Notes under the pieces: generated by a model
The model's database searches: none
Seen by the model: the letters and a program-made list of their open reading frames with translations, nothing else
Told to the model about the DNA's origin: nothing
Part shown: positions 1,850-10,641 of the stretch, piece after piece
Numbering within the stretch: the first letter of the stretch is position 1
Layout of the letters: each line of letters begins with the position of its first letter
Assembly: GCA_946409675.1 (NCBI GenBank)
Contig: CAMJXI010000021.1
Coordinates: 1-11,953 of the forward strand
Length of the DNA: 11,953 nucleotides
Direction: 5' to 3'
From: an uncultured Lactobacillus sp.
GTDB taxonomy: Bacteria > Bacillota > Bacilli > Lactobacillales > Lactobacillaceae
Made by a program: the position numbers and the translations under genes

Positions 1850-1867
1850 GATTTGACAATAAAAATA

Positions 1868-1891
1868 GAATGCCGGCATTTGCTGGTATTC
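1868..1891. other. Hairpin in the divergent leader region
   Basis: GAATGCCGGCA (1868-1878) faces TGCTGGTATTC (1881-1891). On the plus strand all 11 positions pair, two of them as G-U; on the minus strand the same two become A-C mismatches, but a U-rich tract (UAUUUUUAUUG) follows. It may be a weak attenuator in the minus-strand leader or the first stem of the plus-strand structured region. Confidence 0.4.
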
Positions 1892-1936
1892 TCTGATTAA
1901 GTTCCTAGGCTATATTTTCTTTCTGAATACGTTTTC

Positions 1937-1964
1937 ATTGTACCATACATAACATTAATTTCAA
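1937..1964 (-). promoter_or_regulatory. Promoter of the DUF1659-DUF2922-YvrJ-recombinase operon
   Basis: On the minus strand TTGAAA (complement of 1959-1964) is followed after 16 bp by TACAAT (complement of 1937-1942), with an extended -10 TG one base before it. Transcription would start near 1930 and leave a leader of about 150 nt before the ATG at 1778. Confidence 0.7.
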
Positions 1965-2117
1965 GCCATCTCTTAATGCAGGAGCCAACTGGGTGTGGGC
2001 GAAGTCCACAAATGGGTCTCTCAGCGCTGATTTGCATGTTACACTGTTAAATTTGGTGATTTATATTCGGATTTAATCTCTTAATTCAATCGCCAACATC
2101 ATCAATCAACATGCAAA

Positions 2118-2159
2118 AACCGTGCTGTCAAGGCTGATTTGGGCCTTGACAGCACGGTT
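2118..2159 (+). repeat. 17-bp perfect hairpin within the structured region
   Basis: AACCGTGCTGTCAAGGC (2118-2134) and its exact complement (2143-2159) flank an 8-nt loop TGATTTGG. No T-run follows, so it is not an ordinary terminator. It directly abuts the closing arm of the preceding stem (2108-2117) and is followed by a GTTAAGC/GCTTAAC pair (2157-2163/2211-2217) that encloses the 10-bp hairpin at 2184-2206. Confidence 0.85.
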
Positions 2160-2239
2160 AAGCACTTGTATTGAAGGGGCTTAGCCAGTCTCCGCAGGAG
2201 GCTGGCGTTGGCTTAACTCTTGTCTGCCAAGAAGTTCAG

Positions 2240-2442
2240 ATGGCGTTAGCGAAGTTGGCGTAATCAGTAATTCTGCAGGAATTACTGATTCGCCAAAGTC
2301 TTCCCTTCCTCCCCATGGTGTCACTTAGGATTGCTTCCTTATTATCATTTGCAGCGAACTTCTGCAAATTAATCAGATGGGATGGAGGGGCAAGGAAGTG
2401 TGAAACCTTGGGGAGGAAGGGAAGACGTCTTCGCGAAGCCAT
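2240..2442 (+). repeat. Three-way junction of nested inverted repeats
   Basis: An outer stem pairs 2240-2254 with 2429-2442 (13 pairs, one bulge, one mismatch). Inside it one branch is the 18-bp hairpin 2255-2296 (arms TTGGCG and AATCAGTAATTC with their complements, one bulged T). The other is a 27-position stem 2298-2324/2400-2426 with 25 matches, which itself encloses CTTCCTT/AAGGAAG and the hairpin ATTTGCAG/CTGCAAAT (2347-2354/2362-2369). The branches fit end to end with only one to two unpaired bases at the junction, as expected for a folded RNA. Chance palindromes GAAGACGTCTTC (2421-2432) and CTTCGCGAAG (2429-2438) overlap the closing strands. Confidence 0.75.
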
Positions 2443-2454
2443 ATTTACCGCTGA

Positions 2455-2545
2455 GCCACCACACTGTCTCCGAGCACACTTCAACTCGCACCTCTATAAT
2501 TGGTTGTGCCTGGGCGCAACCATAGCCGAGAGACGGTGTGGTGGC
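2455..2545 (+). repeat. 16-bp stem with inner hairpin
   Basis: GCCACCACACTGTCTC (2455-2470) pairs with GAGACGGTGTGGTGGC (2530-2545), one pair being U-G on the plus strand. Inside, GGTTGTGC (2502-2509) pairs with GCGCAACC (2514-2521), also with one U-G, around a CTGG loop. It shares its outer GAGCCA and inner TGTCTCC with the stem at 2638-2704, while the middle bases differ in a compensated way. Confidence 0.75.
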
Positions 2546-2637
2546 GGGCCTTGTTGGCTTGAACTAAGTCATAAATCAGAATGATGATCTCGTCGGTGAG
2601 CTTGGGTGCTGATCTGAGTGATCAACAGAAATGTTGA

Positions 2638-2704
2638 GCCAAAACCCTGTCTCCAGCATCTAGTAATGTGGCACCACGAAATAGCTTAGGGACAGGGTTT
2701 TGGC
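2638..2704 (+). repeat. 16-bp stem related to the 2455-2545 stem
   Basis: GCCAAAACCCTGTCTC (2638-2653) pairs with GGGACAGGGTTTTGGC (2689-2704), one pair being U-G on the plus strand. The apical part CTAGTAA...GAAATAG (2660-2684) closes as CTA/TAG and GTG/CAC around an AGUA-GAA internal loop that resembles a loop-E (bulged-G) motif. Both stems are followed by GGCGGG and preceded by GAGCCA. Confidence 0.7.
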
Positions 2705-2757
2705 GGGTCCAGTTATTGTAATATTGTGTATAAGCAAAAAATGTCGATCCGAGCGAT

Positions 2758-2824
2758 GTAATCTGTCCTGCGAGCTCTATCTTGATGGCACAACTGGTTA
2801 ATCTGGGGACAGATCACGAGCGAT
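2758..2824 (+). repeat. Last stem of the series, with flanking CGAGCGAT direct repeat
   Basis: GTAATCTGTCC (2758-2768) faces GGACAGATCAC (2807-2817) with 10 of 11 pairs. The 8-bp direct repeat CGAGCGAT lies at 2750-2757 and 2817-2824, just outside both arms. This stem carries the same CTGTCC element as the two before it, but its single mispair is A-C on the plus strand. Confidence 0.55.
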
Positions 2825-3031
2825 ATTGCCTAGAATTTTTGATCATATTTCCGATTTTAAAGTGAAAAATAAAAATCAAACCCACACTCGCCGTTTGGCA
2901 GGGAAAACAACGGGTTGTTTTCAGTTCTAAAAGTGTCTTGGCTTGCGTTTCAGTCAATTCCTTAAAGCCTCCTAGACGGCGTAAAACGCCCTCTACGTCG
3001 ATTTACCATTGACTTCAATTTTATTTTATCT
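2825..3031. other. Gene-less stretch with two small inverted repeats
   Basis: No protein gene is visible. GAAAACAAC (2903-2911) and GTTGTTTTC (2914-2922) form a 9-bp inverted repeat with a two-base centre. GGCGT-aaa-ACGCC (2978-2990) is enclosed by GACG/CGTC and by GTCAAT/ATTGAC (2953-2958/3008-3013), a nested hairpin without a T-run. It may be the 3' part of the structured region or part of a replication or control region. Confidence 0.5.
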
Positions 3032-3061
3032 TTTACACAATATGTTGCTAATCACTATAGA
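3032..3061 (+). promoter_or_regulatory. Promoter of the Fst-type toxin mRNA
   Basis: TTTACA (3032-3037) and TATAGA (3056-3061) are separated by 18 bp. Transcription from about 3068 gives a 65-nt leader before the toxin ATG, typical in scale for toxin RNAs of this family. Confidence 0.5.
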
Positions 3062-3084
3062 AAAAAGCATCTACATACTCTAGA

Positions 3085-3125
3085 ATTAAGTTGTCGCCTT
3101 AATCCCAAATCCAGCGATGGATTGG
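3085..3125 (+). promoter_or_regulatory. Toxin mRNA leader hairpins hiding part of the ribosome site
   Basis: ATTAAG (3085-3090) pairs with CTTAAT (3098-3103). Next, CCAAATCCA (3105-3113) pairs with TGGATTGG (3118-3125) around a GCGA (GNRA) tetraloop with one bulged A, taking up the first two bases of the GGAGGT ribosome site (3124-3129). In the known Fst system a 5' stem-loop keeps toxin translation low; this hairpin has the position for the same role. Confidence 0.6.
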
Positions 3126-3134
3126 AGGTGGATC

Positions 3135-3221
3135 ATGTTTAAAGATTTTTTTGCGCCCCTTGCGGTCACGCTTATCGGCGTCTTGTTTGCTTGGTGGTTA
3201 GATGGCAAAAGCCGCAAGTAA
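3135..3221 (+). CDS. Fst/Lpt-family type I toxin (28 residues)
   Basis: This tiny gene encodes a 28-residue peptide: a short MFKDFFAPLAV start with the family's conserved proline (P8), one membrane-spanning segment (about residues 6-22) ending in AWWLD, and a charged tail GKSRK. That order (KD-FF, AP, G, W-x-L-D/N, basic tail) is the signature of Fst-type toxins such as Fst of Enterococcus and Lpt of Lactobacillus plasmids, which act at the cell membrane and damage plasmid-free daughter cells. GGAGGT ends 5 nt before the ATG. The surrounding promoter, leader hairpins, convergent antisense promoter, direct repeat across the start region and shared terminator reproduce the full RNAI/RNAII layout. 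It is probably a post-segregational stability gene of this plasmid. Confidence 0.88.
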   Translation: MFKDFFAPLAVTLIGVLFAWWLDGKSRK

Positions 3222-4003: not shown

Positions 4004-4591
4004 TTATCCAAAATCTATTCGATCTAAAATCCTCTCACGACTCTGCTGATCGAGCCCCAAATACTCCAGCGTCATGGCCTCATTTGAATGATTTAGTAAT
4101 CTCATTACTAACCCAATATTGTAATTTGATTGGACGTAAACTCGATATGCGCCAGTCTTACGCATTGTGTGCGTACCCAAATAATTAATACCTAAAAGAT
4201 TACCAACTTTAGCCATAATCTTATAAAACTGTCCCTCGGTAATGTGACGTTCTGGTCTCCGTATCGATGGGAATAACCATTCAGAATTAATCCCATTCTC
4301 TCTTAGCCAAGACCAATATACAATCAAATCTGTTTCCACTGGGCTCAGATACAACACATTTTTCTTCCCTGTCTTCTTATCGTGAATGTAGGCATTCGAC
4401 TTGATTGTTCCATCTGTATTATAAATATCATCAAGTTTAAGCCCCATAACATCAGACACTCGGAGTAAAGTCGCCTTCCCAAATTGAAAAATAGTGTAAT
4501 TACGCCTACCGGCCTTAAATGAATGTAATAAGGTATCTTGAACATCTTTAAGCACATTAGAGTCTTTAATTGGTGACACGATCTGCCGCAT
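4004..4591 (-). CDS. Compact tyrosine recombinase
   Basis: This 195-residue protein has only the catalytic domain of the tyrosine recombinase family; the usual 100-residue N-terminal core-binding domain is missing. The full catalytic set is visible: R44 (TLLRVSDVMG), a beta-hairpin Lys (K73, K76 or K77 in DKKTGKK), H141 and R144 (HTMRKT), H168 (LLNHSN) and the nucleophile Y177 (TLEYLGL). The ATG at 4591 has AAGGAG (4600-4605) 8 nt upstream. It has its own promoter and terminator, so it is a single-gene unit. Short recombinases like this act in plasmid multimer resolution or in inversion of DNA segments, and phase-switch recombinases of the FimB type are similarly short. Repeats directly upstream are candidate binding sites. 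Confidence 0.9.
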   Translation of the reverse strand: MRQIVSPIKDSNVLKDVQDTLLHSFKAGRRNYTIFQFGKATLLRVSDVMGLKLDDIYNTDGTIKSNAYIHDKKTGKKNVLYLSPVETDLIVYWSWLRENGINSEWLFPSIRRPERHITEGQFYKIMAKVGNLLGINYLGTHTMRKTGAYRVYVQSNYNIGLVMRLLNHSNEAMTLEYLGLDQQSRERILDRIDFG

Positions 4592-4841: not shown

Positions 4842-6056
4842 ATGACAAATTCTGTAAGTTCTACTAACGAGCAAGAATTTAGTATTGATGCATTCTTTGC
4901 TGGCGTCGGTGGAATTGAGCTTGGTTTCGAGCAAACCGGCAAGTTCAGAGTTGCCTATGCGAATGAGTTCGATCAGAATGCACGAAAAACTTATTCTTTA
5001 AACAACCCAGATACACACCTAGATGGCCGTGATATTCACGATGTTGATCCTAAGGAAATTCCAAACAGCGATCTTATCGTCGGAGGATTCCCATGCCAGG
5101 CATTCTCGATAGCTGGCTATCGTAAGGGATTTGAAGATGGCCGTGGTGATTTATTCTTCGAAATGTTGAAGATGATCAAAGCAAAAAAACCAAAGGCTGT
5201 CTTCATCGAAAATGTTAAGAACTTGGTCACTCATGATCATGGTAATACATTCAAAGTCATTCGAGAGGCTCTTGTCGAAAATGGTTATTTTATCCAATGG
5301 AAAGTGCTAAACGGAAAAGATTTTGGTAATGTTCCTCAAAATCGCGAACGTATCTATGTTGTCGGCTTTAAAAATAAAACAGCCTTTGACAATTTTGAGT
5401 TTCCTGAACCAATTAAATTAACAAAAACTATTCATGATGTCATCGATTTTCATAACGATAAGAACGAAAAGTATTATTATCGCAAGGGCGTTCAGCCATT
5501 CTATGATCAATTAGTACCAGAAATTACGAGCCAAGACACTATTTATCAATGGCGTCGACAATACGTACGTGAGAATAAGACTGGTGTTATTCCGACATTA
5601 ACAGCCAATATGGGCACTGGTGGCCATAATGTTCCGCTAATTCTTACTGACTCTGGTGAAATTAGAAAACTGACACCTAAAGAAACCTTCTATGCTCAAG
5701 GTTATCCTAAAGACTTCAAACTACCAGAAATATCCAACGGCCAACTTTACAAACAAGCAGGTAATTCTGTTGTTGTACCGGTAATCAATAGAATCGCAAA
5801 AAATGTTTATTTTGCTCTAAATTCCGTTAAAGATAACAATGAATTAGAACAAAATCATGATAAATATGCTCTAATATACTCTGATATTAACAGTCGATTT
5901 GAAGGAAAGAGCTATGTAAAAAAATATAGTTCATCAATTGATGAACTAAAAAAATTTGTTGAAGCATCTGGTGTTCAATTACTAAATGATGCTGATTATA
6001 TAAAACTTGTTCAAAAGAAGAAACAAGCAACATTCTACATGATAGAAGAATCCTAA
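4842..6056 (+). CDS. Type II DNA (cytosine-5) methyltransferase
   Basis: A 404-residue protein with the ordered motifs of C5-cytosine methyltransferases: motif I FFAGVGGIELGF (18-29, AdoMet binding), motif IV GGFPCQAFS with the catalytic C85, motif VI ENVKNL (123-128), motif VIII QNRERIYVVG (166-175), motif IX RKLTPKE (275-281) and motif X QAGNSVVVPV (305-314). The target recognition region is about residues 185-268 and contains YQWRRQYVRENK and LTANMGTGGHN, a wording I associate with enzymes for GG(N)nCC-type sites; the specificity is only a guess. About 75 residues after motif X form an extra C-terminal part not needed for catalysis. AGAGGGA precedes the ATG by about 6 nt. It protects host DNA from the nuclease encoded next. 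Confidence 0.95.
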   Translation: MTNSVSSTNEQEFSIDAFFAGVGGIELGFEQTGKFRVAYANEFDQNARKTYSLNNPDTHLDGRDIHDVDPKEIPNSDLIVGGFPCQAFSIAGYRKGFEDGRGDLFFEMLKMIKAKKPKAVFIENVKNLVTHDHGNTFKVIREALVENGYFIQWKVLNGKDFGNVPQNRERIYVVGFKNKTAFDNFEFPEPIKLTKTIHDVIDFHNDKNEKYYYRKGVQPFYDQLVPEITSQDTIYQWRRQYVRENKTGVIPTLTANMGTGGHNVPLILTDSGEIRKLTPKETFYAQGYPKDFKLPEISNGQLYKQAGNSVVVPVINRIAKNVYFALNSVKDNNELEQNHDKYALIYSDINSRFEGKSYVKKYSSSIDELKKFVEASGVQLLNDADYIKLVQKKKQATFYMIEES

Positions 6057-6063
6057 ATTATTC

Positions 6064-6102
6064 AAACGAAGCTGAACCTTTAGCTTCGTTTCTTTGTATA
6101 AT
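6064..6102 (+). terminator. Terminator between methyltransferase and restriction gene, with -10 of the latter
   Basis: AAACGAAGCT (6064-6073) pairs perfectly with AGCTTCGTTT (6082-6091), followed by CTTTG, an intrinsic terminator. Immediately after it is TATAAT (6097-6102) with no good -35. The nuclease gene is therefore probably expressed by read-through and a weak promoter of its own, which would delay nuclease relative to methyltransferase. Confidence 0.7.
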
Positions 6103-6134
6103 CAAGTTATCAAATAAAATATGGAGCATAAGCT

Positions 6135-7433
6135 ATGACAGTATGGAGTCGTTACTCAAAAGAACAAAAGACTGAATACGAAGAATATCTAAAAATGTAT
6201 AGTGCACTTTCTGCACTATTTAATCAAAAATCATCTGAAACCGGCGCACCTTATTTAGACTCCAAATTTCAAGAAACAATCTATGCTCGTAGTTTCGATT
6301 CTGAAGACGTTGATATTGGAAATACACCTCATGATATCAGATCAACATTCGCAAATGACGACAAGATTGGTATTGGGATAAAGACCTGGTTAAACTCAAA
6401 TACTTCTTACCAAAAAGTTATGCAACTTAAACGTTATAAAGAAGAAATCGATAAGCACAAAGATGATTTAGATGATTTGGCATTGACTATATCAACTATC
6501 AAAAACACAAGATTGATTGCTGACTATAATCGTCTAGGTCTCAAAGACAATGAAAACATCTATCATTACGTAACTCGTGACCGAGGAACCCTAAAACTAT
6601 CTGAAACTAGCTACCCCTTAGTCGACATAAATCATCTCGAACCACAATCACTAAAAAGTAGTTCCTTTAACTTCACTGACGGCTTAAAGGAATATAAATA
6701 CACCTTTGGTGACAGCCAGGTCTTTATGAAATTTGGTGAAACTCTACCAAACACTGATCTGTTAAAGAAAATCGACATTGAAATACTAGAAGATCCATTC
6801 GAATTCATAAAACAATCATTTAAAAAGTTTTACAGTACTGGTGGCGTTCTAGTACCAGAAAAAACACGTGATTATCTATATCTTCCACTCTACTCATACA
6901 GAGACCATAAAGTATCAAAAAGTAGTGGTTTAAATGCTTGGAACGGACTACCAAAATCAGCTGGCAGTACTGTACTACGCCCAGAAGGAGAAGCCTACAT
7001 TCCAATTCCAAAAGCCCTTTGGAAGAAACACCCTTATTGGATAAATCCAACGATAAACATGAGTAAATATGCTGAATACCACCAATCCACTGGTAACTCG
7101 AGCTATCCTATCCACTTACACATGCCGGACGGAACCACATTCGACGCTATCTTTGCACAAGAAGGCTTCAAAGCACTACAAACTAACCCTCAAAACATCT
7201 TAGGAAAATGGATTCTTAATGCCTTAGGAATTAAAAAACCACAAAGACAAAGATACGATATACCAGCTACCAATATCGTTACAATGGATCGCTTAAAACA
7301 AATCGGATACGACAGCGTAAAACTATGGCGAGAAGTCCCTGCTAAGCCAGACGATTTTTGGATCGACTTCGCAGAATACGGGTCATTCGAACGATTCATA
7401 AACGACGAAACACAGACCACAGAAGAAGATTAA
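6135..7433 (+). CDS. Putative type II restriction endonuclease with B3-like DNA-binding C-terminus
   Basis: A 432-residue protein placed 78 nt after the methyltransferase in the same direction, the normal position for the partner nuclease. The N-terminal half has an EDxK-like set: E47 (KFQETIYARSF), D67 and K83 (IGIGIKTWL), compatible with a PD-(D/E)XK core, though a clear motif is lacking. The C-terminal 170 or so residues begin SGLNAWNG, then EGEAYIPIPKALWKKHPYW and DGTTFDAIFAQEGFKALQTNPQNILGKW (three pieces: 337-344, 345-352, 353-358 approximately). The pattern 'EVYIPIP ... G-KAL-x-x-NP-x-x-LGKW' resembles the B3-like recognition domain of the NgoFVII/BfiI group; no HxK phospholipase motif is present. 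GGAG lies 8 nt before the ATG. Function is inferred from context plus this resemblance. Confidence 0.72.
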   Translation: MTVWSRYSKEQKTEYEEYLKMYSALSALFNQKSSETGAPYLDSKFQETIYARSFDSEDVDIGNTPHDIRSTFANDDKIGIGIKTWLNSNTSYQKVMQLKRYKEEIDKHKDDLDDLALTISTIKNTRLIADYNRLGLKDNENIYHYVTRDRGTLKLSETSYPLVDINHLEPQSLKSSSFNFTDGLKEYKYTFGDSQVFMKFGETLPNTDLLKKIDIEILEDPFEFIKQSFKKFYSTGGVLVPEKTRDYLYLPLYSYRDHKVSKSSGLNAWNGLPKSAGSTVLRPEGEAYIPIPKALWKKHPYWINPTINMSKYAEYHQSTGNSSYPIHLHMPDGTTFDAIFAQEGFKALQTNPQNILGKWILNALGIKKPQRQRYDIPATNIVTMDRLKQIGYDSVKLWREVPAKPDDFWIDFAEYGSFERFINDETQTTEED

Positions 7434-7903
7434 AACTCCTCTTAAACCCCAACCAAAAGGTTTGAGCCGTGCCGGCTCTCTCAAGACACTTTCCCTATCA
7501 ATGAAAAAATGTCATTGAATTTTGCTTTCTTTTGACACCCAGACATACTAGATGTAGACCAAATATTTTTGAGCCACATCTAGTAGATCCAGCAACCGTT
7601 TAAACGCAACTAGCCCTTGTCCCTGGTCACCACGGTTTTACGTGACGTTGCACGTATGCTTTTATTTAAACTGATAGCATATAGAACTCAATTGGTGGCA
7701 GGGTGGTTGATTCCATTTCCTAGTCTTCCACTCCACGTCTTTTGCGGGGTCATATCCGCAGGGTTCAGTACACCCATGTCTCTAACTATGCACGTGGTCA
7801 CCAACCGCGCTAACGAGTGATTTGAACGATCAATTGACAGGGAACTACCCAAACGTCTTCTGGTTGATGATCAACCCAACCAATTCGTTTTCGCACAAAA
7901 AAA
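7434..7903. other. Gene-poor stretch rich in small hairpins
   Basis: No convincing gene is present; a 67-codon frame at 7617-7820 has no ribosome site. Short inverted repeats follow each other: AAACC/GGTTT (7444-7463), GAGCCG/CGGCTC (7464-7478), TCAATGA/TCATTGA (7498-7518), TACTAGATGT/ACATCTAGTA (7546-7555/7576-7585, perfect 10 bp), TGCGG/CCGCA (7743-7760) and the 15-bp palindrome GGTTGAT-G-ATCAACC (7862-7876). GGTCACCACG (7626-7635) and CGTGGTCACC (7793-7802) are near-complementary over 9 of 10 positions. This could be a second structured RNA or a replication control region; the case is weaker than for 1982-2824. Confidence 0.4.
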
Positions 7904-7941
7904 GTGGATTGACTACTAGACTACCCTAGTAATCAATCCAC
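7897..7941 (-). terminator. Strong minus-strand terminator
   Basis: A 16-bp stem (7904-7919/7926-7941, arms GTGGATTGACTACTAG and its near complement) has one position that is G-U on the minus strand and A-C on the plus strand. On the minus strand it is followed by seven U residues (complement of 7897-7903). The transcript it ends must begin close by, since the DNA up to 8003 contains only a divergent promoter; it may be a short antisense RNA. Confidence 0.75.
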
Positions 7942-7979
7942 TGATCTTAAATTTCAGATTAGTTGACTGTTGATTTTTT

Positions 7980-8005
7980 TCAACCCATGTTATAATATGA
8001 GTTGA
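7980..8005 (+). promoter_or_regulatory. Extended -10 promoter overlapped by operator-like inverted repeat
   Basis: TGTTATAAT (7988-7996) is an extended -10 with perfect TATAAT. It lies in the centre of TCAACCCAT (7980-7988) and ATGAGTTGA (7997-8005), complementary at 8 of 9 positions, so a bound dimer would block transcription. TTGAATTCAA and GGGTTG directly downstream continue the symmetry. Confidence 0.6.
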
Positions 8006-8101
8006 ATTCAATTGGGTTGGTCCCCAAATGAACAAAAATCTTACTACTGGTTTTAGTAAGTCGCAAGTCTCCGGGAACGTCAATTCCGCGGAGCTTTTTT
8101 T
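8003..8101 (+). ncRNA. Candidate small RNA of about 100 nt
   Basis: From the extended -10 promoter a transcript of about 100 nt would contain one hairpin CTTACTA/TAGTAAG (8040-8046/8054-8060) and end at an intrinsic terminator: CTCCGGGAA (8069-8077) pairs with TTCC-G-CGGAG (8084-8093, one bulged G), followed by seven T residues (8095-8101). An ATG frame (8028-8237) crosses it but has no ribosome site and would be cut by the terminator. Its place beside the partition repeats suggests a plasmid control RNA, or an attenuator for what follows; no target is recognised. Confidence 0.55.
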
Positions 8102-8180
8102 GTGCGCTTTTTATTTACTTGTTATCATCACCATACTTAACTACAGCGATTTTGTAAATAGTTTTTCTAAACTCATACAT

Positions 8181-8240
8181 TTACCATTTACCATTATGTT
8201 ATTACCATTTACCATTATGTTAAATGGTAAATGGTAATAA
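8181..8240. repeat. parC-like tandem and inverted repeats, first cluster
   Basis: A 21-bp unit is perfectly repeated in tandem at 8181-8201 and 8202-8222, each holding two copies of TTACCATT. The second unit also forms the left arm of an 18-bp perfect inverted repeat (8199-8216/8223-8240) with a 6-bp spacer. Short, closely spaced repeats of this kind upstream of parA are the binding sites of ribbon-helix-helix partition proteins, so this is the probable centromere. Confidence 0.75.
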
Positions 8241-8296
8241 CACTTTGTATTAGGTACATAAACAACCGATGTACAAGCATTTATTATGAATGTATA

Positions 8297-8360
8297 TGTA
8301 CATTTAACACTTTGTATGAGATAATTATCCTACAACAAAGTGTTAAATGGTAAATGGTAA
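8297..8360 (+). promoter_or_regulatory. parA promoter with operator repeats, second cluster
   Basis: TGTACA (8297-8302) and an extended -10 TGA-GATAAT (8317-8325) are 17 bp apart. The -10 lies between the arms of a 13-bp perfect inverted repeat TTTAACACTTTGT/ACAAAGTGTTAAA (8303-8315/8335-8347). Two more AATGGTAA units follow at 8346-8360, and AACACTTTGTAT also occurs at 8239-8250. The partition protein that binds here should repress its own operon. Confidence 0.65.
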
Positions 8361-8386
8361 ATATTGTTCACATAGGAGGAAAGTAC

Positions 8387-9208
8387 ATGGTCAAAATCTT
8401 GAGTTTCGCAAATTTTAAAGGCGGAGTCGGTAAAACATCGACAACGGCATTAACAAGCTGGGCGCTAGCCGCTAAAGGCTACAAAGTATTAGCCATTGAC
8501 TTTGACGCGCAGGCCAACTTGACTTCGCTATTATTAAAGACCAAAGCGAGCGGAAGTGAGAACGCAATTATCACGATTGATCGGTCATTAATGTCCGCAA
8601 TCAATGAGAATATTCCAATTAACGAGATTGCAATCAGTATCACTGACAATCTTGACCTGGTTCCGACTGCCGTTGATTTTTCAATGTATCCACGGTATCT
8701 CGATAAGATGTTTAATAGTGAAATTGAAAAAGTGTCGTTCTTCAAGAACGCACTTGGGTCATTTAAAGACAAATACGATTTTATTTTTATCGACGTACCA
8801 CCAACATTATCCTTGCAAAACGACACTGCCTTCTATGCCTGCGATGATATCGTCGTCGTTCTCCAAACTCAAGAACGAAGCATGGCCGGTGCTGAAGCAT
8901 TTATTCAGTATTTACAGAATACCCTAATTAACGAATTTGAATCATCGGTTGACGTTCTAGGAATCTTACCAGTATTGTCTAAACGAAACGCCCAAGTCGA
9001 CGCCGAAATTCTCGAGGCTGCAAAACAAGAATTCGGCGAGGAAAATATCTTTAGAAACACGATTACAATCATGGAGCGCATTAAACGAATGGATATGACG
9101 GGAATCACAGCTAACAATAACGATCGCTGGGACAACAAGGTTCATGAGTCATTCTCACTTGTTGCCGATGAACTGATTGCTCGTCTAAACTCCGTTAAGG
9201 AAGGGTAG
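8387..9208 (+). CDS. parA: ParA-type plasmid partition ATPase
   Basis: A 273-residue ATPase with the deviant Walker A motif KGGVGKT (residues 11-17, signature Lys K11), the second box IDFDAQANL with D40 (37-45) and Walker B IFIDVPP with D136 (133-139). There is no N-terminal helix-turn-helix extension, so this is the short ParA class (type Ib) that pairs with a small DNA-binding partner and an upstream centromere. The ATG at 8387 is chosen because AGGAGGA (8374-8380) precedes it by 6 nt; the frame opens 11 codons earlier at 8354, inside the operator repeats. ParA forms ATP-dependent gradients on the nucleoid and moves plasmid copies bound by the partner. Confidence 0.93.
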   Translation: MVKILSFANFKGGVGKTSTTALTSWALAAKGYKVLAIDFDAQANLTSLLLKTKASGSENAIITIDRSLMSAINENIPINEIAISITDNLDLVPTAVDFSMYPRYLDKMFNSEIEKVSFFKNALGSFKDKYDFIFIDVPPTLSLQNDTAFYACDDIVVVLQTQERSMAGAEAFIQYLQNTLINEFESSVDVLGILPVLSKRNAQVDAEILEAAKQEFGEENIFRNTITIMERIKRMDMTGITANNNDRWDNKVHESFSLVADELIARLNSVKEG

Positions 9209-9216
9209 GGGATATC

Positions 9217-9579
9217 ATGGCTGGATTGTTGGATCACAGTGGAAAGTCAAAAAAGAAGCTTACCCGTGGGGCTGAAATAAAAGTAGCTAATCAAGTTACC
9301 CGACAAGAATTATCTGATCAAGACAAGATAGCTTCGGATAATAATATTGAAATATCAATGAAAAAGCAGGTTGATTTCCCAGTAAATATTCGAGTAAATA
9401 ATCATGTCAGAAACAACATTACTGCGCTACTGAACCTCGGTTTGGGGAATTCTGCTTCCGAACTAGTCAATAGACTAGTCAACGAACAGATTGAAACTTT
9501 GGAGCCATCACAGATTAAGAGATTTAATCAGATGGTCGATATTCTGGAGCAAAAAGACTACTTGAAACGTCAAAAATAA
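9217..9579 (+). CDS. ParB-like ribbon-helix-helix partition protein
   Basis: A 120-residue protein starting 8 nt after the parA stop, with AGGGGA as ribosome site. The first 50 residues are basic, polar and probably flexible (KSKKKLTRG), as in partners that stimulate ParA. Residues about 54-92 read as a ribbon-helix-helix: a strand FPVNIRV, then helices NNHVRNNITALLNLG and SASELVNRLVNEQI. A terminal helix follows. It resembles the small proteins annotated downstream of ParA in Lactobacillus plasmids (DUF5388-type, sometimes called replication-associated). It probably binds the repeats at 8181-8240 and 8303-8360 and represses the operon. Confidence 0.8.
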   Translation: MAGLLDHSGKSKKKLTRGAEIKVANQVTRQELSDQDKIASDNNIEISMKKQVDFPVNIRVNNHVRNNITALLNLGLGNSASELVNRLVNEQIETLEPSQIKRFNQMVDILEQKDYLKRQK

Positions 9580-9586
9580 TGCAAGA

Positions 9587-9640
9587 GACAAGACATTGGC
9601 AACATTCCAATATCTTGTCTTCTTAACATTGACTTTTTTT
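9587..9640 (+). terminator. Terminator of the partition operon
   Basis: GACAAGACATTGG (9587-9599) faces CCAATATCTTGTC (9607-9619) with 12 of 13 pairs around CAACATT. The T-run follows only after about 14 bases (9634-9640), so termination may be inefficient. Confidence 0.6.
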
Positions 9641-9663
9641 ATGCGCTAATATTAAGTTGTTAA

Positions 9664-9804
9664 ACACATCATACAGTTGAATCCCACGATAATACTGGTG
9701 TTGAAACCGAATTGAAAACTTCAGCAACTAAGACGGAAACTTCGCAAGCAGAATCGCAAACATCGATAACAAAACATCATTGGTGGCAATTTAGACATAA
9801 ATAA
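9664..9804 (+). pseudogene. C-terminal remnant of an unrecognised gene
   Basis: An open frame of 46 codons runs from a TAA (9661-9663) to a TAA at 9802-9804, with no start codon at its beginning. It encodes a Thr/Ser/Glu-rich stretch (ETELKTSATKTETSQAESQ) ending in HHWWQFRHK. The low-complexity linker with a short aromatic-basic tail looks like the end of a longer protein whose front has been lost. It could also be chance; no function is proposed. Confidence 0.35.
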
Positions 9805-9853
9805 ATATACTTTGTCTCTTTATTAGGAAATTAAACGGAGTAATTTTTAATTC

Positions 9854-9881
9854 AAAAAGAACGCCAAATGGCGTTCTTTTT
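9854..9881. terminator. Bidirectional terminator after the muramidase gene
   Basis: AAAAAGAACGCC (9854-9865) and GGCGTTCTTTTT (9870-9881) form a perfect 12-bp hairpin with an AAAT loop and T-runs on both strands. It overlaps the stop of the minus-strand muramidase and also faces the plus-strand partition operon. Confidence 0.9.
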
Positions 9882-10641
9882 ATTTTATCCTTAATTGATC
9901 CCCCGGGTGAATCACCGACTTGATCGTCTTACCATTCAATTTTGCCAAATCATACATGTCTACATTGAATTTATGGGCAATCCCCCACCACGAATCCCCC
10001 GAAACGACAGTATAATACGCATCAGAGCACTCTCGATCAATAATATCTCCCGTATAATGCTCAAAAAAATCATAAGACATATCAACGTTCATGTTCATAT
10101 AATTATCCGTAAATTGCCATGTGCCAACATTATCAACACCAGGTTGCTTGTTGTTATGCGCCGCAATCCACAGATTCTTAGCAATTAACTGATCAGGATT
10201 AACTCGACCTTCCCAGATCCACGAAGCAGATGTGTAAATATCAGTCTTATGATATCCTGCAGATATCACAGTCCGCAGAAATTCATTAACACTCGATGTG
10301 GCATGATGTGGAATCTCAGGCGTCTCGACATCAACAACCATCACAGAATCGCTCATAATACCCATTTTCTTCGCATTAAGAATGAACCACATCGCTTCAT
10401 GTACGGCGTCCTTATCGTTAGAAAATCGTGCAAAATGATAAGCATGAACCTTCATGCCACACTCACGTGCATTCTTAATCTGATTTTTTGCTTTTGGATT
10501 GATATATGCCGTCCCTGGGTTAGATCCCTCCGTTATTTTAACGATCACCGCCTTAACACCAACATTTTTGAGTCTCTGAAAAAATGCCGGCGTATCAGGT
10601 TGGTGGCTGCTCACGTCTGCCACCAGATTATATGTTGCCAA
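9880..10641 (-). CDS. GH25 muramidase with C-terminal LysM domain
   Basis: A 253-residue peptidoglycan hydrolase. Residues 5-195 form a GH25 (Lyc) domain: the N-terminal DVSSHQ with D9, and the catalytic pair D104-E106 in MVVDVETPE. Further family marks are the AYHFAR strand and the GTWQFTDN segment near its end. Residues 209-252 are one LysM peptidoglycan-binding repeat (YYTVVSGDSWWGIAHKFNV). It cleaves the glycan backbone at N-acetylmuramic acid. No signal peptide is present, as in phage endolysins released through a holin. The TTG start at 10641 has AGGAGGA (10647-10653) 5 nt upstream, overlapping the end of the initiator gene, so it is the last gene of that operon. It could be a phage lysin or a wall-opening enzyme for transfer. 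Confidence 0.92.
   Translation of the reverse strand: MATYNLVADVSSHQPDTPAFFQRLKNVGVKAVIVKITEGSNPGTAYINPKAKNQIKNARECGMKVHAYHFARFSNDKDAVHEAMWFILNAKKMGIMSDSVMVVDVETPEIPHHATSSVNEFLRTVISAGYHKTDIYTSASWIWEGRVNPDQLIAKNLWIAAHNNKQPGVDNVGTWQFTDNYMNMNVDMSYDFFEHYTGDIIDRECSDAYYTVVSGDSWWGIAHKFNVDMYDLAKLNGKTIKSVIHPGDQLRIK

Follow-up and report, generated by a model that had tools for sequence, protein, structure and literature searches.

The stretch of DNA that was analysed (the window, 11,953 bp) is contig C21, whose genes are those of a plasmid; the genome it comes from is incomplete (66%, in 172 contigs) and belongs to the same family as the genome of Lapidilactobacillus concavus. The minus strand was found to contain the genes for a DUF1659 protein, a DUF2922 protein, a small ORF, a YvrJ-like ORF (below the Pfam cut-off) and a Xer-type recombinase, with a cut SSB, a Rep_trans/MobT-like protein and a GH25/LysM protein present across the contig ends. 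Elsewhere the window contained a 195-aa integrase (a tyrosine recombinase at 4004-4591, minus strand), a cytosine methyltransferase with an NgoFVII-like restriction protein, and ParA with DUF5388. The same gene order, with some genes missing or unnamed, was found in plasmids of L. salivarius, L. amylovorus, L. johnsonii and L. taiwanensis. The DUF1659 protein was found in no other genome among 397 and in no plasmid, and the Rep protein was matched in 4 of the 397 genomes and in none of the viral contigs. The contig start (1-46) was adapter-like, an assembly artefact that we take to be Illumina adapter sequence, and the SSB gene is truncated at the opposite end. Before ParA, at 7800-8350, hairpins and TTACCATTTACCATT repeats make up another structured region, which could be a partition site or a control RNA.

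The non-coding stretch with nested stems and a three-way junction, which a first-pass annotation had described at 1982-2824, was recovered by fold statistics, by a stem search and in the predicted folds (Table 1). The minimum free energy of this stretch was -359 kcal/mol on the plus strand (z -11.9, 60 dinucleotide shuffles) and -328 on the minus strand (z -11.5); the core at 1982-2446 reached z -12.5, and two control stretches of the same window gave z -1.1 to -0.1. The fold excess is mainly within 2025-2549. The 150-nt windows across 2025-2324 gave z values of -6.6, -6.0 and -7.1, followed by -0.6 at 2325-2474, where the window cuts through the long arm P7, -1.6 to -2.5 between 2475 and 2774, and +1.5, that is, no fold excess, at 2700-2849. 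The last value leaves the 3′ end at 2824, which had been proposed earlier, without support from fold strength, which is weak from about 2700.

Table 1. Coordinates and properties of the features at the locus; complementarity values are from the stem search, and pair changes refer to the L. plantarum pLY7801 copy (L006) and the L. concavus copy (L027).
Feature	Position in window	Strand	Remarks
Divergent promoter TTGAAA-16-TACAAT with leader element	1964-1937; element 1857..1964	-	Conserved leader; terminator-like hairpin GAATACCAGC/GCCGGCATTC, then T-run
Candidate large structured RNA	1982..2824	+ favoured, not proven	Ends approximate; z -11.9; relatives L006 ~6120-6715 and L027 ~7829-8440; no Rfam match
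Helix P1	1995-2000/2004-2009	+	Triloop; common to L027 only; 6 pairs, 1 one-sided change kept
Helix P2	2031-2039/2109-2117	+	L027: 3/9 pairs double-changed and kept; 5′ arm not found in L006
Hairpin P3	2118..2159	+	17 bp; 2118-2134/2143-2159, 17 nt, 100%; conserved loop side GCTNNTTTNNGCCTTGACA; outer pairs partly broken in L006
Hairpin P4	2184..2206	+	In L006 and L027 longer and different inside; left out of covariation counts
Three-way junction, closing helix P5	2240..2442	+	P5 2240-2244/2438-2442 and 2249-2254/2429-2434; internal loop GUUA/GAA; 2/6 pairs of inner half broken in L006
Junction hairpin P6	2255..2296	+	Pentaloop UGCAG; 2262-2273/2279-2290, 12 nt, 100%; double-changed and kept: 7/18 pairs L027, 5/18 L006
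Junction long arm P7	2298..2426	+	2298-2324/2400-2426, 27 nt, 93%; L027: 3 pairs double-changed and kept, 5 pairs absent from both arms
3′ repeated hairpin h1	2455..2545	+	2455-2470/2530-2545, 16 nt, 94%
3′ repeated hairpin h2	2638..2704	+	2638-2651/2691-2704, 14 nt, 100%; inner motif GUGGCACC common to L006
3′ repeated hairpin h3, weaker	2758..2817	+	Surrounding window z +1.5
Separate element, probable single-strand origin	2872..3013	-	~75-78% match to mostly unannotated parts of small plasmids

The stems named in the first-pass annotation were found at the same places by the independent stem search, and the three-way junction was formed in the window folded alone and likewise in the L. concavus relative folded alone. 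The hairpins h1 and h2, which had been regarded as related, were found to differ in their stem letters with the pairing retained, and a third, weaker copy (h3) was present at the 3′ side.

Two relatives of the locus were found, one in L. plantarum plasmid pLY7801 and one in a contig of L. concavus, which gives three members in total. The similarity of pLY7801 was colinear and lay within 6134-6579 in a sensitive comparison, and its copy was found without the 5′ part of the RNA. The L. concavus contig (G121:C74) was found with the pLY7801 RNA as query among 397 Lactobacillaceae genomes and was identical over 3,384 bases to NZ_AZFX01000043.1 of Lapidilactobacillus concavus DSM 17758. Its RNA locus was ~61% identical to that of the window whereas two long stretches with restriction-modification genes were 90-92% identical, so the plasmids are mosaics. 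The fold of the L. concavus copy reached z -10.0 and that of the pLY7801 copy z -2.6, the 3′ half of the latter folding weakly (z +0.7 to +1.4 at 6400-6624).

With the pLY7801 RNA as query, four of the 397 genomes gave a match, namely the window, G121, a CRISPR spacer in G196 and a 25-nt match in G216. The L. concavus RNA matched only itself among 8 genomes of its genus, and the window RNA gave a match in 4 of 100 genomes, the three others only in the element after 2850. The P3 pattern was found only in the window's own genome among 395 Lactobacillales genomes, and a pattern search of genome contigs gave 24 stretches, one of which (L157) was the L. concavus contig. In the plasmid records searched, pLY7801 was the sole record carrying the RNA part, and the phage records contained no match to the window or the L. 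concavus locus; those obtained with the pLY7801 query were in methyltransferase genes only, outside the RNA, and were rejected. In viral contigs, one pattern gave a single stretch judged to be chance after reading, another was unspecific among the matches listed, 13 stretches were GC-rich without similarity to the RNA class, and two further patterns gave no match. In a blast comparison of the three RNAs with 205 loci (carriers' loci excluded), the CRISPR spacer was recovered; the other matches were all short, with E no better than 0.02. No description of the locus was found among the papers listed by a literature search that largely lay outside subscription journals.

Pair changes were counted in hand-aligned helices, P1-P3 and P5-P7 for the window against L. 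concavus and P3, P5 and P6 only for the window against pLY7801, the P7 arm of the latter being left out. Between the window and L. concavus, 21 pairs differed: 16 contained double changes that were kept, 2 one-sided changes that were kept and 3 one-sided changes that were broken, with no double change broken and 6 positions with gaps. The window and pLY7801 differed by 9 double changes kept and 2 broken and by 2 single changes kept and 3 broken, and L. concavus and pLY7801 by 7 double changes kept and 2 broken and by 1 single change kept and 4 broken. Since aligning by hand is biased towards the structure, pair changes were counted again over window 1982-2446, this time with an alignment made from sequence only and with the fold of a single sequence, six slid registers serving as control. 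The window fold on L. concavus kept 18 double changes with 7 broken (5-9 kept when slid), the L. concavus fold on the window 25 with 8 broken (5-10), the window fold on pLY7801 13 with 10 broken (3-8) and the L. concavus fold on pLY7801 11 with 7 broken (2-8), whereas the pLY7801 fold on L. concavus gave no excess (8 kept and 5 broken, against 2-9). One-sided changes of the window fold on L. concavus were at no advantage: 16 were kept and 29 broken, compared with 24-40 and 29-48, respectively, in the slid registers. The arms of P7 were placed wrongly by the sequence aligner. Paired changes above control across relatives, the general test of a structured RNA, were thus present in the three sequences over 1982-2446, where this covariation is good but not final evidence. 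A large structured RNA, as had been proposed, is favoured by the strength of the fold and, for 1982-2446, by covariation with the two relatives, and the locus is regarded as a candidate RNA.

Coding capacity was weighed against this reading. The region contained ORFs of 89 and 82 codons, and the longest open stretches were 106 codons (window, plus strand), 80 codons (L. concavus, minus strand) and 74 codons (L. plantarum, plus strand). In the aligned part, window 1982-2446 against the relatives, no conserved reading frame was found, and gap lengths against L. concavus were multiples of 3 in 3 of 12 cases. A protein-coding origin or a chance structure is contradicted by these frame-breaking gaps, by the fold excess and by the covariation, and is scarcely credible.

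ROOL and GEBRO were reportedly described in a 2017 paper. The Rfam search of the window gave no match at the gathering cut-off, and at E up to 10 over 1850-3120 it gave 17 matches, none of which reached its cut-off (best E 0.0056); most came from microRNA models lying on the long stems, and ROOL, GOLLD and GEBRO were absent. The earlier suggestion that the locus is GOLLD or ROOL thus finds no support from the covariance models. The ROOL model found ROOL on pMP118 (130.4 bits, cut-off 99.1) as a positive control for that one model. A ROOL search of the window's own genome gave no match, but it gave none in the controls either and so says little by itself. At E up to 1, the pLY7801 and L. concavus copies gave no match to the ROOL, GOLLD or GEBRO models. 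A highly diverged ROOL, GOLLD or GEBRO beyond the reach of these models would share the same kind of hosts and the mobile-element setting, and GEBRO-like RNAs were found to occupy a similar place in sibling plasmids. This reading is nevertheless unlikely in view of the missing model matches, of a ROOL model that works on pMP118, and of a blast comparison of the three copies with the GEBRO-like loci that gave only short matches (best E 0.012 on either strand, 1.6 on the same strand). A new class, the alternative that had been offered alongside GOLLD and ROOL, remains the best reading.

Like ROOL (RF03087), the locus is a large structured candidate RNA on a lactobacillus plasmid with long helices and no protein product, but it has no similarity to the model and its core is made of P3-P7 followed by repeated 3′ hairpins, some bearing GUGGCACC. 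GEBRO (RF02988) is likewise a large RNA; plasmids of L. taiwanensis and L. amylovorus that have the core genes of the window plasmid contain a GEBRO-like 3′ part upstream of their DUF1659-position ORF. It differs in that the window contained no match to its model and in direction, the GEBRO-like RNAs of the sibling plasmids being co-directional with the DUF1659-position ORF and the window RNA, if on the plus strand, pointing away from it. GOLLD is also a large ornate RNA, by its name of Lactobacillales (PMC12286853), but its Rfam model gave no match to the window.

The strand of the candidate RNA is not settled, and the plus strand is favoured with fair confidence. The first-pass annotation had derived a plus-strand origin from five of six mispairs being G-U on that strand, a count that was reproduced neither by the stem search nor in the hand-aligned helices. 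The strand-neutral stem search gave 1 G-T, 1 A-C and 2 other mispairs in the window and 3 G-T against 1 A-C in all three sequences, and the hand-aligned helices contained 4 G-U and 5 A-C. One-sided changes kept in the sequence-only test (16 on plus, 8 on minus) favour the plus strand, whereas the double changes kept (18 on plus, 23 on minus) and the energy do not, the plus/minus energy difference being that of shuffles, i.e. of composition alone (z 0.5); the plus-strand origin is thus weakly supported. The G-U share of pairs was higher on the plus strand in all three copies, and also in 5 other loci (8 of 8 tested). The internal loop of P5 was GUUA/GAA in the window, GUCA/GAA in L. concavus and GUCA/AAA in pLY7801, and on the plus strand it would resemble an RNA loop with G-A pairs. 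Plus-strand promoter-like sites reached at best 9/12 matches, and the terminator scan listed no plus-strand terminator.

The stems were long and nearly perfect with few G-U pairs, which would also suit DNA hairpins. The structure could then act as DNA, in hairpins of a single-stranded rolling-circle intermediate that serve a lagging-strand start or protection. The Rep_trans protein and the SSB fragment of the window plasmid, the about equally strong folding on both strands, and double changes kept on the minus strand at least as often, with few G-U pairs, are all consistent with it. Single-strand origins resemble the locus in being non-coding, palindrome-rich and present on small plasmids, but a separate neighbouring element outside the candidate RNA (2872-3013) is probably the single-strand origin; in the one plasmid read, rep was oriented relative to this element as it is in the window. 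A weak Rfam match to a Bacillus-plasmid RNA was present near the element. The locus is much larger than known single-strand origins, and its nested junction also goes beyond them. Such origins would also be confined to rolling-circle replicons, but the locus is present on pLY7801, whose initiator is Rep3-type, and theta is the known replication mode of Rep3 plasmids. A tblastn search (E 1e-3) of pLY7801 found nothing related to the window's Rep, and when seven window proteins were compared with this plasmid (tblastn) only the 195-aa integrase was found, at 76% identity. The Rep3 initiator and the sharing of the integrase alone speak against a rolling-circle DNA function, which is held to be quite unlikely. 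The L. concavus contig contained the 195-aa integrase (76%) together with relatives of Rep, DUF2922, GH25 and Xer, so that the RNA and the integrase occur together in all three carriers.

A very long minus-strand 5′ leader regulating the DUF1659 operon was considered as well, DUF1659, DUF2922 and the subsequent genes being read away from the structure on the minus strand. However, the conserved promoter at 1964-1937 lies between the structure and the operon and has its own short conserved leader, and the next ORF in pLY7801 encodes a different protein, which makes such a leader very improbable. The promoter/leader element adjoins the RNA in the relatives, being repeated in pLY7801 (6001-6071) and present twice in L. 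concavus, and its conserved leader (1857-1964) precedes different small ORFs. This leader folded no better than shuffled sequence, and its hairpin was not reported by the terminator scan. In the L. concavus contig, AACATATGTTCG was present at 7371-7382, presumably as a LexA-like box, before an ORF at 7406-7810 just upstream of the RNA; the ORF gave a weak YolD match (E 0.0077, below the cut-off). On the other side of the window RNA, a 28-codon ORF (MFKDFFAPLAVTLIGVLFAWWLDGKSRK) was found at 3135-3221 on the plus strand with no Pfam match, which we take to resemble the Fst/Lpt type I toxins.

The region is accordingly read as the probable gene of a large (~0.6-0.85 kb) non-coding RNA of small Lactobacillaceae plasmids, of a class absent from Rfam. 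That the locus yields an RNA product is very probable from the fold, the shared helices, the covariation and the lack of a conserved frame, and it would be transcribed and accumulate as a stable RNA. The locus lies among plasmid genes and is also present on pLY7801, and the RNA would serve the plasmid rather than the host, most likely in maintenance or copy number. The nearest precedent for such a role is the lncRNA of L. salivarius, which is ROOL by Rfam; it adjoins an HTH gene where the Rfam search places ROOL. When it was deleted in L. salivarius UCC118, the megaplasmid/chromosome ratio fell from 1.61 to 1.16 while the growth rate did not change significantly, and the authors were unable to assign it a definite function (PMC5643018). 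By analogy with this RNA, a maintenance role for the window RNA is an evenly poised possibility, slightly on the doubtful side. ROOL and GOLLD self-assemble into multimers, ROOL forming an octameric RNA-only cage, and what the large ornate RNAs OLE, ROOL and GOLLD do is said to be poorly understood (PMC12286853). Self-assembly of the window RNA into a multimer, by likeness to ROOL and GOLLD, is possible but rather unlikely. A further class on plasmids or contigs of 9.3-12 kb would offer a compact, mobile system for straightforward tests of deletion, copy number and stability.

The position of the locus was compared with that of other islands in 17 plasmids and contigs containing the core genes or parts of them, a sample that is not random because most were chosen as top Rep matches; one of the 17 (L186) was left out of the mapping. 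Seven of the 17 (the window, L. concavus, L014, L015, L016, L189 and L190) had a large non-coding island adjacent or close to the DUF1659-position ORF. In L018 a GEBRO-like island was separated from this ORF by inserted genes, and L185 contained a structured region (7390-7860) beside its own 195-aa integrase instead. No such island was present at that position in L013, which contained an AT-rich 817-nt spacer with one strong hairpin, or in L017 (225 nt), L019 (309 nt), L187 and L188 (228 nt), and L012 and L191 were without annotated DUF1659/DUF2922. As L014, L015, L018 and L190 share one island, they count as one case. The GEBRO model gave partial matches in L014 (33-125, 52.1 bits, E 1.5e-11) and L015 (6453-6536, 57.1 bits, E 4.3e-13) against a cut-off of 284.7, and the islands of L015 and L016 had a modest fold excess (z -2.5 and -3.4). 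In Psychrobacillus pPB01 (L189), 9503-10403 contained four copies of a ~110-nt three-way junction with a double change in 8 of 37 predicted pairs and no Rfam match at E up to 0.5; windows there reached z -9.6, but single windows mean little in that scan since 8-18% of windows per sequence were below z -3.2. Inside the annotated RepA gene of L187, a very strong fold was present at 3001-3150 (z -11.1).

The sibling-plasmid islands were not similar in sequence to the window RNA; a 53-nt G-rich match between pLY7801 and pPB01 (E 0.004) and a 28-nt match between L016 and pPB01 (E 0.01) were probably low complexity. Small Firmicutes plasmids with the DUF1659-DUF2922-YvrJ-Xer-SSB-Rep core may contain a slot for a large ornate RNA, which would be filled by unrelated RNAs acting as a plasmid-maintenance module, a tentative idea that we hold with some doubt. 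Its occupants would be the window class, the GEBRO-like RNAs, a so far unnamed RNA in L. johnsonii pLjDC22.2_1 and the Psychrobacillus locus, ~1 kb or more in length, with its four copies of a three-way junction. If different large RNAs do replace one another at the same plasmid position, this would strongly hint at a common function.

The CRISPR array of G196, another genome of the L. concavus genus, contained 11 repeats and 10 spacers (L028 1395-2085), which were compared with 12 plasmid sequences; 6 of these spacers gave no match there. One spacer resembled an RNA hairpin of pLY7801 in antisense at 25/36, which is weak because another spacer reached 24/36 in an unrelated AT-rich stretch of L014. 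One spacer matched the rep gene of L. concavus at 32/37 (28/37 for the window rep), and one matched the same RNA hairpin of pLY7801 at 33/36, so that both the plasmid family and the RNA locus have been seen by CRISPR immunity.
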